Under the pieces are notes generated by a model, which worked only from the letters and a program-made list of their open reading frames with translations, made no database searches and had not been told where the DNA came from. The position numbers and the translations under genes were made by a program. From an uncultured Bacteroidales bacterium (GTDB taxonomy: Bacteria > Bacteroidota > Bacteroidia > Bacteroidales > Bacteroidaceae): a stretch of DNA of 64,000 nucleotides. The DNA is taken from NCBI GenBank assembly GCA_902781515.1, contig CACZJU010000007.1, positions 104,191-168,190 on the forward strand. The letters are read 5' to 3'. Below are positions 35,847-41,485 of the stretch, piece by piece (the stretch's first letter is position 1; the number at the start of each line of letters is the position of its first letter).

Positions 35847-36991
35847 TGAGATACGTCTATCCACATATACGCAAAATCGCACAGGGGATTAATTTCCTCT
35901 GTGCTGCGTATTTTGTGGTGTTCTCTTTCCTTTTTCTCTTTTGCTTGCAGAGTGACCTCTTGACACAGGTGAAGTACCAGATGTCTAGTAGCGAAGATTC
36001 CTCGTTCAGTCCTTTCTGGGCAGCAACACTCTGCACGCTGATCCTTTGGTCTTTGGGAGTTCTCTTAAAGCGCCTGCTTCATTGGTTGCCCCTGCGCCTC
36101 AAGGCTCTTATATGGTTTGTACCATTTCTTCTATTGGCATTCCTCACTCATTGGCGTTTCCCTCAGTATGGTGATTCAGGTACCATGCCTTCGCCTTTGT
36201 ATCTTGTTTTATATGTTATTATATACATATATCTGCTTTTGAGAGGATATGCCCACATCGATTCTTCCAAGGAGCACGAAACATTCTCCACCTATGCATG
36301 GCCTAATGTCTTGCTGCTAATCCTGATGTCGTGTATGTCAATATCGTTCAGTAACACCGATATTGTAATGCATCGTACTCTCAGAGCTGCCAGTCAGTTG
36401 GCTGATGCCGACTACGATGGAGTTCTTGAAACAGCACGTTACGAGCAGCATCCTTCGCAACAACTTTCAGCAATGACAGCTCTTGCGCTCAGCAATAGGG
36501 GAGAGTTGGGTGAACATCTTTTTGCCTATCCTCAGCCATTCGGAAGCGAGGGATTGTTGCCTCAGTTGGCTGACACAGCACTTTTCTTCAATCTTCCTTT
36601 AGCTGCAGGTAATCATATAGGTTACAAACGTGGACCTCGTTCTCGTGTTTCACTTTTCCTTGAAGTCATTTCCACAATGCCGAAGGCGAAACCCTCTGTT
36701 CGTGATTATCGTCTGGCAGCAGCCTTGCTCGATAGGGACCTGCCTCGTTTTGCTTCTATTTTGAAGAGTGATACAGCGTCTGTTCCTATGCCGATACATT
36801 ATCGTGAGGCAATGCTTCTTCATTCATATTTAACCAACGATTCAACAATCGCTCCTGCTGACAGTTTTCTTACGGCTGATTTCCAAGAGTTCCGCTTGTT
36901 ATTAGACGAAAGCGGCACCAAAGACGAGCGGGAGTTTCGTTGCCGCAATCGCTTTGGTGCCACGTATTGGACTTATTTCTATTTTCATTAA
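35846..36991 (+). CDS. DUF6057-like multi-pass membrane protein
   Basis: A 381-residue protein with about five membrane helices in the first 190 residues (for example FLCAAYFVVFSFLFLFCL, LIWFVPFLLLAFLT, YLVLYVIIYIYLLL, PNVLLLILMSCMSIS) and a helical, TPR-like soluble half. It resembles the Bacteroidetes DUF6057 family. The first base of its ATG is the last base of the glgB stop. Its stop shares two bases with the stop of the convergent gene at 36988. Function unknown. Confidence 0.72.
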   Translation: MRYVYPHIRKIAQGINFLCAAYFVVFSFLFLFCLQSDLLTQVKYQMSSSEDSSFSPFWAATLCTLILWSLGVLLKRLLHWLPLRLKALIWFVPFLLLAFLTHWRFPQYGDSGTMPSPLYLVLYVIIYIYLLLRGYAHIDSSKEHETFSTYAWPNVLLLILMSCMSISFSNTDIVMHRTLRAASQLADADYDGVLETARYEQHPSQQLSAMTALALSNRGELGEHLFAYPQPFGSEGLLPQLADTALFFNLPLAAGNHIGYKRGPRSRVSLFLEVISTMPKAKPSVRDYRLAAALLDRDLPRFASILKSDTASVPMPIHYREAMLLHSYLTNDSTIAPADSFLTADFQEFRLLLDESGTKDEREFRCRNRFGATYWTYFYFH

Positions 36992-38070
36992 TGGCGTCCG
37001 CCTCTTGAGCTTCCACCGAAGCCTCCTCTGCTACTTCCTCCTGAGAAACTTCCTCCTCTGCTGCTGCCAGAGAAACTTCCTCTCGAACTTCCACCAGATA
37101 GACTTCCGCCTCTGCTTCCCCCTGAGAAACCACCTCTTGAGCTTCCGCTAAAGCTTCCTCTTGAACTTCCGCCAGAGAAACTACCTCCCCTGTTTCCTCC
37201 TGGGAAACTGCCTCTTGAGCTTCCGTTGAAGTTGTTTCTTGAACCGTTGTTAAGGCTTGAGCCTCTATCTATGTTTCCATGATTATCGCTCAATGAACCG
37301 TGACTGCGTCCATGGTCGTTGTTGTGACTTAAATCGCTATGGTTTCGTCCGTTGTCGTTATGTCCGCGTCCAAAGTCACTATGATTGAAACTGTTGTCGT
37401 TGTGATGACGTCCGAAATCGTTATGGCTGCGTCCGTTATCATTATGATTGCGTCCAAAGTCGTTGTGATGACGTCCGTTATCCAGACCATGTCCTCTGTG
37501 CTCAATGTGGTAACCTGGACCTCCGCGATGTGAAATCGAATGGTGGTCGTGAGGACGTCCAATCATCGTGTGATGATGTCCGCGTAATCCTCCGTTCCAA
37601 ATCGGACGTCGACTGGCGTAGAATCCGTGACTGTAATAGAATCGACCGTGTCCGCCTCTGTATTCCCAGAAGATGCTGGGACGATGATAGTAGAAGTGTG
37701 TGCGTGCATAGTAATCGTAAACAGGGAAGTACCAAGCTCCGCTGCGCCAGAGAAGAGGACGGAACAGATAGCTTGAAGCTACGAAAGCCGTCCATTGCCA
37801 TGCGTGCAGAATCTCACGCAGGTCCTCGTTACGATAGGTAAGATAACGAGAATCCAGAAGGTCGGCTTCTGTGTTAATAGACAGCAGGTAGTCGAGATTG
37901 ATTTCGTAGGCATCATTATACTGCTGCTCGTTCAGATTCAGCTCGTATGCCATCTTGTCTGTCAGGTAGTAAGCCTGCTCGCGTGCAGTCTCATAATCCA
38001 TGGCATTGGCGCCCATCCAAGCCGTCATTGCCATCACTAAAGTCATCATGTAACGTTTCATAGTTTTCAT
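36988..38070 (-). CDS. Exported protein with Gly/Ser/Arg- and His/Asn-rich low-complexity tail
   Basis: A 360-residue exported protein. The signal peptide (about 1-23, ends GANA) is followed by a folded Tyr/Trp-rich region (24-150). The His/Asn/Asp/Gly tract (about 175-270, NHNDNGRSHNDFGRHHND-like) could bind metal, and the last 90 residues are SSRGSFSGGSSRGG repeats. I do not recognise the family. An ATG at 38061 is an equally good start; the longer reading to 38094 would lie inside the promoter. The repetitive DNA of the tail is prone to slippage. Confidence 0.75.
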   Translation of the reverse strand: MKTMKRYMMTLVMAMTAWMGANAMDYETAREQAYYLTDKMAYELNLNEQQYNDAYEINLDYLLSINTEADLLDSRYLTYRNEDLREILHAWQWTAFVASSYLFRPLLWRSGAWYFPVYDYYARTHFYYHRPSIFWEYRGGHGRFYYSHGFYASRRPIWNGGLRGHHHTMIGRPHDHHSISHRGGPGYHIEHRGHGLDNGRHHNDFGRNHNDNGRSHNDFGRHHNDNSFNHSDFGRGHNDNGRNHSDLSHNNDHGRSHGSLSDNHGNIDRGSSLNNGSRNNFNGSSRGSFPGGNRGGSFSGGSSRGSFSGSSRGGFSGGSRGGSLSGGSSRGSFSGSSRGGSFSGGSSRGGFGGSSRGGRH

Positions 38071-38091
38071 TGTTTTGGTTGTTTGATGTTG

Positions 38092-38099
38092 CAAAATTA
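38092..38099 (-). promoter_or_regulatory. -7 promoter element of the Gly/Ser/His-rich protein gene
   Basis: TAATTTTG on the minus strand. It implies transcription from about 38087 and rules out the ATG at 38094. Confidence 0.5.
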
Positions 38100-39312: not shown

Positions 39313-39359
39313 TACATTACAGACTTGACGGATTAAGAAACTTTAGACTATTGAACGCA

Positions 39360-39391
39360 AATAAGGACTATCCCGTGGGGTAGTCCTTATT
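39360..39391. terminator. Strong hairpin after ilvE
   Basis: An 11-bp perfect stem (AATAAGGACTA with TAGTCCTTATT) continued by CCC-gt-GGG. T runs are short, but the symmetry would let it serve ilvE on plus and the adjacent RNA candidate on minus. Confidence 0.75.
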
Positions 39392-39394
39392 CGT

Positions 39395-39603
39395 ATGAAA
39401 AAGCCGCACTTCGGTGATGTGATGAAACTCCGAGTAAATAAGTTTTGAGCGCCCGCATCCTTTGTAATCCGCCGGTCATCGCTGACTACCCTTTGGGGGC
39501 GCGGCCCGCCATTGGAGTGCGTAAGCATTCTCGGTTTTCAGTATTATTTGATGAGTATCCCAGTCAAACCTCGTGCGGCTGTGTATGGCTGTTCGTTTCT
39601 CTT
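39395..39603. ncRNA. Candidate structured RNA between ilvE and tRNA-Ala
   Basis: About 200 nt without a credible ORF that fold into several compatible helices: closing stem AGCCGCAC (39402-39409) with GTGCGGCT (39573-39580); second stem GAAA-ct-CCGAG (39424-39434) with CTCGG-t-TTTC (39530-39539); inner stem GCGCCC (39449-39454) with GGGCGC (39497-39502) holding GTCA-tcgc-TGAC; hairpin GAGTGC-gtaa-GCATTC (39515-39530); hairpin TTTGA/TCAAA (39547-39568). On minus it has a promoter word (39608-39615) and the closing stem is followed by TTTTT, supporting a minus transcript of about 205 nt. The GTAA loop would be a GNRA tetraloop on plus, so the strand is not settled. Not recognised as RNase P, tmRNA or SRP RNA. 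Confidence 0.55.
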
Positions 39604-39607
39604 GGTG

Positions 39608-39615
39608 CAAAGTTA
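39608..39615 (-). promoter_or_regulatory. -7 promoter element reading into the structured RNA
   Basis: TAACTTTG on the minus strand, located a few bases outside the folded region; no other gene is positioned to use it. Confidence 0.5.
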
Positions 39616-39695
39616 GTGTTTTTGTTATCACAGAAAAAACTTATTGCAATAGATATTTCAAAGTAGAGGTAATTTATAAAAAAGTGTGGAAAATA

Positions 39696-39727
39696 TTTGC
39701 GGGAGTGGGGAAGAGTTCGTAACTTTG
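39696..39727 (+). promoter_or_regulatory. Complete promoter of tRNA-Ala
   Basis: TTTG at 39696-39699, a 20-bp spacer and TAACTTTG at 39720-39727 match both boxes of the Bacteroidetes housekeeping promoter. The tRNA begins 17 bp later. Confidence 0.75.
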
Positions 39728-39743
39728 TCACGCAAATGTGCAA

Positions 39744-39910: not shown

Positions 39911-41485
39911 ATGATGTTTCTACGTACTATATTTACAGCGATATTCTGTTTTGTCGCATTGGAAGTAATAGGTCAGGACGACACTTTTATGATGTTTGAA
40001 CGTCCTGAGTGTGATGTGCATTTCACACCGCAGGTTGCAGCCAGACGCGACGGTGTTAAGCGTGTTGGCTCACAGTCTGCTGCTCCATTGAAGTCGTCTG
40101 GTGTACAGCGTGTTCCAGTAGTTCTTGTGAATTTCAAGGATGTTAAGTTCTCGGCTGCTCCAGACAGTGCATCAGTAAACGAGTTTTATCAGAAGTTCTG
40201 CAATGGCACTATGGACGGCAAGCGTTATACAGGACATGGGAGTTATGGTAGCATACGTGACTATTTTATTGCGCAGAGCGATTCTGTATTCTTCCCCTTG
40301 TTCGATGTCATTGGACCTGTGACTCTGGATTCTGTGGTAAGTTATTACGGAAAGAATAATCCAGGACGCGACACTAATTATGGTAAGTTCACCAGCGAGT
40401 CGCTGAAGAAGGCTATGACATCGTTCAGTGACTGGAGTAAGTTTGACAACGATGATAACGGAACCATAGACATCGTATTTTTCATATATGCGGGATTTGG
40501 TGAGAGCAACACTCGCAATAAGCATCCAGAATTGATTTGGCCAAAGGAAACAACATCGAGTACGATAATTGACGATTGGGTGTTCGCCACTAGTGGCGTT
40601 ACATGTGAGGCCCGACCGAAGTGGAACGAGAATTACACGGAAATTGTGGACACTATTACCGACGGAGTGGGGGTTTTCATACATGAGCTTAGTCATGCGC
40701 TTGGTTTACCTGATTTCTACGACACTAACTACAAAGCATTCGGTATGGACATTTGGAGTGTAATGGACTATGGAGAATATGGTGTGGATAGTGGACGTAC
40801 ACCAGGCAATTACACCGCCTACGAACGTGATTTTATGGGCTGGCGTCAATTGAAGACTCTAACGGAACCATGTGTTGTCACCATTCCCTGTTTTGCCGAT
40901 GGAGGTACTGGATACAAGATTGTGAACGATGCTAATCCAAATGAATTCTATGTCATAGAGAACCGTCAGCCTAAGGGCTGGGATAGTCGAATTGGCAAGT
41001 ACGGACACGGTTTGCAAGTGACTCATGTGGACTATTATAGTAATAAATGGAATGGCAATAGCGTGAATACGGATGCTAAACATCAGTGTATGACCATCAT
41101 TGCAGCCAATAACAACTATAATGGAGTAAACGAAGGAGATCAGCAGGCATGGATAGCTGCAATCCCAGGCCAATTGTATCCGGGTAATACCTATAACTAC
41201 AGTTTGACGGACGAGTCAACACCTGCAGCACAAGTGTTCTCGAAATCAGTGGTATATACTGGAGCACTCATGCACAAGCCACTTAATGCCATAATAGAGA
41301 ACGAGGACGGGACCATTACTGTCTATTTTATGACAGAGCCTGTTGGCATTCATTCAATTCAAAATTCAAAAGTTAATATTCAAGATGAAGTATACGATTT
41401 AAGTGGTAGACGCGTTTCAAAACTTCATCGCGGCATTAACATCATACGCAATGCCGATGGCTCTGTACGCAAGGTTATGCGCTGA
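39911..41485 (+). CDS. Secreted M6-family metalloprotease with type IX-like C-terminal tail
   Basis: A 524-residue secreted zinc protease. The signal peptide covers residues 1-21. The active site HELSHALGLPDFYD (HExxHxxGxxD, near residue 258) belongs to the immune-inhibitor A-like M6 family, and the preceding VVLVNFKDVKF and GSYGSIRDYF segments fit. The last 35 residues (VYDLSGRRV ... GINIIRNADGSVRKVMR) look like the type IX secretion sorting tail seen in Prevotella. The linker just before it (IHSIQNSKVNIQDE) is encoded by an AT-rich simple repeat. The substrate is unknown. Confidence 0.88.
   Translation: MMFLRTIFTAIFCFVALEVIGQDDTFMMFERPECDVHFTPQVAARRDGVKRVGSQSAAPLKSSGVQRVPVVLVNFKDVKFSAAPDSASVNEFYQKFCNGTMDGKRYTGHGSYGSIRDYFIAQSDSVFFPLFDVIGPVTLDSVVSYYGKNNPGRDTNYGKFTSESLKKAMTSFSDWSKFDNDDNGTIDIVFFIYAGFGESNTRNKHPELIWPKETTSSTIIDDWVFATSGVTCEARPKWNENYTEIVDTITDGVGVFIHELSHALGLPDFYDTNYKAFGMDIWSVMDYGEYGVDSGRTPGNYTAYERDFMGWRQLKTLTEPCVVTIPCFADGGTGYKIVNDANPNEFYVIENRQPKGWDSRIGKYGHGLQVTHVDYYSNKWNGNSVNTDAKHQCMTIIAANNNYNGVNEGDQQAWIAAIPGQLYPGNTYNYSLTDESTPAAQVFSKSVVYTGALMHKPLNAIIENEDGTITVYFMTEPVGIHSIQNSKVNIQDEVYDLSGRRVSKLHRGINIIRNADGSVRKVMR

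Follow-up and report, generated by a model that had tools for sequence, protein, structure and literature searches.

The interval between ilvE and a tRNA-Ala gene in the stretch analysed here (the window, 64,000 nucleotides from an uncultured Bacteroidales bacterium) raises the question of which RNA, if any, it encodes, from which strand, and whether that RNA is connected with 23S rRNA. A preliminary description made from the letters alone had pointed to a small structured RNA encoded by the minus strand, "unassigned" and with "no gene to explain" it, and had suggested that it possibly is derived from or mimics part of 23S rRNA. The structured RNA and its strand have been borne out by covariation, with none of 500 shuffles equalling the observed values, and the missing assignment has been supplied, as the locus is Rfam RF01693. 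The feature is real and conserved, but it belongs to an already catalogued RNA family. We are highly confident that it represents the 6S RNA gene of this uncultured Prevotellaceae-type Bacteroidales genome, with proposed 6S-type transcription and function.

Family membership of the locus

The Rfam covariance-model search that had been put forward as a check was run with cmscan and returned a full-length match to RF01693 on the minus strand at window positions 39396-39580 (124.7 bits, E 2.7e-20), covering model positions 1-179 of 179. The score lies above the curated gathering score of 60 bits by which membership is decided, and the conserved apical stem with compensatory changes that also marks the family is present as helices 6 and 7 (12 of 16 pairs). 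The window locus shares with RF01693 the full-length match, the strand, the apical structure and the conserved words. Our own model R1, in which the window is one of the 60 training rows, scores 157 bits at the same site. Across the draft genome to which the window belongs (46 contigs, 86% complete), this is the single RF01693 match. No open reading frame of at least 80 aa lies over the RNA stretch, open stretches reaching at most about 58 codons in the translated slice. For the adjoining ilvE, the top matches in named genomes among those listed are 96% and 91%, in Prevotellaceae and Bacteroidaceae MAGs.

Rfam names RF01693 Bacteroidales-1 and describes it as "6S-Bacteroidales RNA suggested". 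A permissive scan of 39330-39740 returned the RF01693 match again; second by bits was 6S-Flavo, likewise on the minus strand, with 19.2 bits (E 4.3) against a gathering score of 85. Canonical 6S RNA (RF00013) gave no match at the gathering threshold, nor at E up to 10 on 39330-39740, and this result, together with the wording "suggested" in Rfam, weakens the "6S" identity. Canonical 6S RNA (E. coli ssrS) follows a rod plan with a length of about 185-200 nt, and the window RNA is alike in both respects.

Structure, promoter and transcript ends

Covariation was assessed in an alignment of 60 sequences (59 distinct rows, the window included) that were aligned by sequence only and comprised 30 loci from searches of the window's own genome and of the same genus and 30 new loci from an order-wide search. 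Because weaker matches without a locus (9 of 40 same-genus rows and the weaker order-wide rows) were left out, the covariation counts reflect the better-scoring members, in which the structure named by us has 93.1% of its cells paired, 24 of 44 pairs changed on both sides and a covariation score of 0.367. No shuffle out of 500 matched this structure in pairing, two-sided changes or covariation score, and sliding the partners by 1-3 columns as a control left 37.8-48.3% paired. Covariation in homologues, which the preliminary description had named as the evidence to look for, is therefore present. The features are collected in Table 1.

Table 1. Features of the RNA locus and its surroundings in window coordinates.
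Feature	Position	Strand	Basis or remark
Predicted 6S RNA gene (Bacteroidales-1, RF01693)	39396..39603	-	cmscan and R1; predicted transcript about 200 nt, 5′ end placed near 39603 from the promoter word
Closing stem, 5′ arm AGCCGCAC	39573..39580	-	helix 1
Closing stem, 3′ arm GTGCGGCT, continuing into U-run 39398-39402 (resembles a terminator)	39402..39409	-	helix 1
Possible inner stem, 5′ arm, GATACTC here (majority GAAACTC)	39553..39559	-	helix 3
Possible inner stem, 3′ arm, GAGTTTC	39424..39430	-	helix 3
Predicted central bubble, 5′ strand	39526..39552	-	unpaired in Rfam
Predicted central bubble, 3′ strand	39431..39450	-	unpaired in Rfam
Apical stem with terminal hairpins	39451..39525	-	helices 6 and 7, Rfam structure
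-7 promoter element TAACTTTG (Bacteroidota TAnnTTTG)	39608..39615	-	sequence word and homologue counts
T-run roughly where a -33 element would lie (weak)	39634..39639	-	spacer of 18-20 nt to the -7 word
Hairpin separating ilvE from the 3′ end of the 6S gene; may terminate the convergent ilvE	39363..39388	+	read from sequence

The RNA is a rod consisting of a closing stem, a putative central bubble and an apical stem. A stem joining the 5′ and 3′ ends, one of the criteria applied here for a 6S RNA, is provided by helix 1, in which 98.9% of cells are paired and 7 of 8 pairs carry two-sided changes; RNAalifold finds this closing stem too. It also constitutes the best test of the structure, since the Rfam structure line of RF01693 is unpaired there and the search consequently imposed no pairing, whereas the 60-row alignment supports the stem by two-sided changes. 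The closing stem followed by a T-run that had been seen in the single sequence is thus retained, AGCCGCAC being able to pair with GTGCGGCT, which leads into the U-run. Within the closing stem, a further short stem (columns 12-19 with 194-199) is 88.9% paired, with 4 of 6 pairs changed on both sides. At the other end of the rod, apical helix 6 is 92.5% paired with two-sided changes at 9 of 12 pairs, and helix 7 is 100% paired with such changes at 3 of 4 pairs. The words ATGGCG and GATTACA in the apical stem are invariant across the 60 sequences. The RNAalifold consensus comprises 32 pairs, 21 of them with two-sided changes, and contains both the closing and the apical stems.

The inner stem adjoining the bubble (helix 3) is 93.2% paired, with two-sided changes at 0 of 7 pairs, and RNAalifold replaces it by two 3-pair helices (columns 20-22/49-51 and 160-162/181-183) without compensatory change. 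Owing to this lack of two-sided changes and to the preference of RNAalifold for the two other short helices, the inner stem is listed only as possible. In 8 of the 60 sequences (L003, L005, L006, L010, L018, L026, L028 and L029), a C is inserted at column 186 of the possible 3′ arm, always together with a G at column 25 of the 5′ arm; this pairing-up is perhaps a single event in one clade. Of the helices tried inside the bubble (CCGA/UCGG and GACA/UGUC), one is 93.8% paired with two-sided changes at 0 of 3 pairs and the other 81.8% paired with such changes at 1 of 4. Such scarce covariation would fit an open central bubble without proving it; in the minimum-energy fold the bubble is partly paired, and RNAalifold puts two short hairpins at its edge. 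We take the 5′ strand of the bubble to be the putative template strand for pRNA, by analogy with E. coli 6S RNA.

A promoter word at one end of the RNA, part of the original observation, was confirmed as TAACTTTG, and its consensus recurs in the homologues. In 54 of the 60 sequences (window included), TAnnTTTG stands no more than 75 nt upstream of the match, compared with none of the 60 downstream stretches and one of the 60 reverse-complemented upstream stretches; the 200 dinucleotide shuffles averaged 4.2 and never exceeded 9. The distance from the promoter word to the stem differs among homologues, from 5 to 60 nt. An exact TTTG at -33 is absent in the window, where a T-run takes its place. 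TAnnTTTG is described as the consensus -7 element for the Bacteroides primary sigma factor, and promoters of the host lineage differ in this respect from the -35/-10 promoters of canonical 6S RNA, in the part of that report drawn on here (PMC7366714). Transcription is predicted to proceed on the minus strand, probably from the TAnnTTTG promoter, and to yield about 200 nt ending in the RNA's own closing stem and U-run.

Relation to 6S-Flavo and alternative readings

Homology to another recognised 6S family was a further criterion for the 6S assignment, and it was found through R1, a model built from RF01693 matches only. A search of 118 genomes of the phylum with RF01685 (6S-Flavo) yielded matches with E no higher than 0.001 in 13, of which 4 exceeded the cut-off. 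R1 finds 12 of these 13 6S-Flavo loci at the same place and on the same strand, including all 4 over the RF01685 cut-off, with E-values of 7e-10 to 4e-5 that are rough because of a short calibration; one further listed hit has E 0.13. The RF01693 model itself reaches 3 of the 13 loci at E below 0.01. Even with rough E-values, the agreement in position at 12 of the 13 loci is strong. Words such as ACUCA and GGAGUUU are common to both RNAs, whereas the models differ in length (108 positions in RF01685 against 179 in RF01693) and the window scores far below the RF01685 gathering score, as given above. The Rfam output assigns no clan to either family. Taken on sequence alone, the strand, the family membership, the closing and apical stems, the promoter word, the single match in the draft genome and the homology to 6S-Flavo may be regarded as established.

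The suggestion that the RNA is derived from or mimics 23S rRNA rested on five words said to occur in the order of domain V, namely GTTTGACTGGG, CCGGCGG, CGCTCAA, TACTC and TCATCACATC. Comparison with the 23S genes of E. coli and five Bacteroidales was made by local alignment with dinucleotide shuffles, domain V being defined as the 620 bases that precede a marker word. In favour of the suggestion, GTTTGACTGGG, CGCTCAA and TACTC do follow one another as stated in domain V of both E. coli and the five Bacteroidales, and in E. coli four of the five words keep the stated order. The full series of five does not hold, as CCGGCGG occurs nowhere in the E. coli gene and is absent from domain V of the five Bacteroidales genes, in which TCATCACATC is missing as well. 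Of 500 shuffles each, just 17 attained the domain V alignment score of E. coli and 13-23 that of the individual Bacteroidales genes (about 3-5%), but this score consists of a single 11-base exact word in a region picked after the fact, and over the whole gene the corresponding figures were 22 of 500 and 73-108 of 500. A separate E. coli run with three scorings gave 20, 16 and 5 of 200 shuffles for domain V and 26, 103 and 17 of 200 for the whole stretch; with a 23S sequence reaching only model position 2044, the observed score was met by 252 of 300 and 65 of 200 shuffles under two scorings. A search for a 23S match in the window's own draft genome returned none. Among the 60 homologues (window included), the five words were found in 4, 2, 4, 20 and 32 sequences, respectively, the most frequent of them, TCATCACATC, being the one that the five Bacteroidales 23S genes lack. 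Since a relic or a mimic would be expected to keep the words, the resemblance is taken as chance, a reading that the preliminary description had itself allowed for. With words unconserved in homologues and an alignment not clearly above shuffles, a 23S fragment or mimic was rejected and is considered extremely improbable.

The GTAA tetraloop that had been noted on the plus strand would instead point to a functional RNA of that strand, such as a 3′ element of ilvE. Any stem remains a stem in its complement, and the plus strand folds at -60.1 kcal/mol. Against shuffles, however, its folding energy has a z of -0.25 (86 of 200 as good), compared with -1.54 for the minus strand (12 of 200 as good); single-sequence folding is unexceptional and would not have sufficed as proof by itself. 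The many G-U pairs on the minus strand (e.g., 16 U-G cells at the last closing-stem pair) become C-A on the plus strand, the promoter word and the U-run fit the minus strand, and none of the other 59 loci showed ilvE next to the RNA within flanks of up to 1.5 kb. The plus-strand reading is accordingly given almost no credence. Slightly more weight, while still very unlikely, attaches to a trans-acting structured RF01693 RNA with a function other than that of 6S RNA (e.g., protein titration or base pairing), for which the "6S" label would be wrong. In the portions of Weinberg et al. 2010 drawn on here (PMC2864571), Bacteroidales-1 is a noncoding RNA candidate that receives no 6S assignment and 6S-Flavo is reported apart; Rfam's own wording is equally cautious, and a polymerase-binding test was not met with in the portions of the literature cited here. 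These points are opposed by the significant homology to the 6S-Flavo loci, by the rod with its covarying closing stem, and by the 6S RNA with pRNAs reported for B. thetaiotaomicron (PMC7366714, in the passages concerned).

With the assignment as a 6S RNA, a candidate described as "unassigned" acquires a name and probably the role of a global regulator, and the proposed connection with 23S rRNA falls away. The additions to the known family are modest, consisting of covariation for a closing stem that is missing from the Rfam structure line and of a significant link between RF01693 and RF01685.

Proposed function, distribution and genomic context

By comparison with 6S biology, the rod-shaped RNA most likely imitates an open promoter. 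It would bind the housekeeping RNA polymerase holoenzyme, with a primary sigma of the sigma-ABfr type, as growth slows, and synthesis of a short pRNA by the polymerase on the bubble's 5′ strand would then set the RNA free. The likely function is thus sequestration of the RNA polymerase holoenzyme with release by pRNA synthesis; for transcription, polymerase binding, pRNA synthesis and growth-phase control, we infer from the general biology of 6S RNA. In the relevant part of their report, Ryan et al. published the 6S RNA of B. thetaiotaomicron, crediting the prediction to Wehner et al. 2014, with dRNA-seq evidence for two pRNA classes (PMC7366714); its identity with the RF01693 locus is presumed. 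According to the sections consulted, a 6S RNA has also been detected in Flavobacterium psychrophilum (PMC9723704), and a reannotation of P. gingivalis lists one Bacteroidales-1 RNA per strain (PMC5771137). A more speculative reading, which we hold to be possible though rather unlikely, merges Bacteroidales-1 and 6S-Flavo into a single 6S family spanning the Bacteroidota, with a conserved bubble sequence tuned to the phylum's unusual primary sigma (TAnnTTTG) and not to sigma-70. The union of the families would rest on the R1 hits to 6S-Flavo loci, and the tuning to sigma is conjecture; if true, this reading would offer a natural test of the co-evolution of 6S RNA with promoter recognition.

Within the genus, 32 of 36 genomes have an RF01693 match, and the 4 that lack one are 61-83% complete. 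Order-wide, 113 of 393 genomes (own included) gave a match, 81 of the 393 over the family cut-off. R1, built from the 60 sequences, matched 110 of the 393 and thus brought no gain, although each search caught some genomes missed by the other. Because both order-wide searches were run under strict filters, with six candidates scored per genome, absence, divergence and filter loss are indistinguishable in the 280 of 393 genomes without an RF01693 match. For these genomes in particular, the closing stem and the 6S-Flavo link could improve the annotation of Bacteroidota 6S RNA. One same-genus genome (G026) carries a second, diverged RF01693 match of 105.2 bits on a 3.7-kb contig (C148, locus L067, 638-816, minus strand), about 56% alike to the other copy by a crude global score; it is a paralogue or contamination.

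The genomic position of the RNA is poorly conserved. With flanks of 1.5 kb, shorter in a few cases, the ilvE and M6 peptidase genes of the window adjoin the RNA in a single locus of the 60, that of the window, and tRNAs lie beside it in 3 of 60, window included. The proposal to align the ilvE to tRNA-Ala interval from other genomes proved unworkable as put: within flanks of up to 2 kb, the RNA was found beside ilvE in none of 80 loci from named genomes (the best 80 of at least 571 confirmed, 9 of the 80 being incomplete). The tRNA-Ala side is kept in G001, the closest genome by RNA sequence among those compared, where tRNA-Ala and a 61%-identical peptidase adjoin the RNA and ilvE was not found. 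The same genome has two overlapping RF01693 matches at two contig ends, probably one gene split by assembly. As to the neighbouring genes of the window, an M6-type metalloprotease gene lies downstream of tRNA-Ala at 39911-41485 on the plus strand (PF05547, 48.6 bits, Pfam; TIGR03296, 151 bits, NCBIfam), and the open reading frame at 36988-38094 on the minus strand has a long tail of low complexity in which Gly, Ser, Arg, Asn and His abound.
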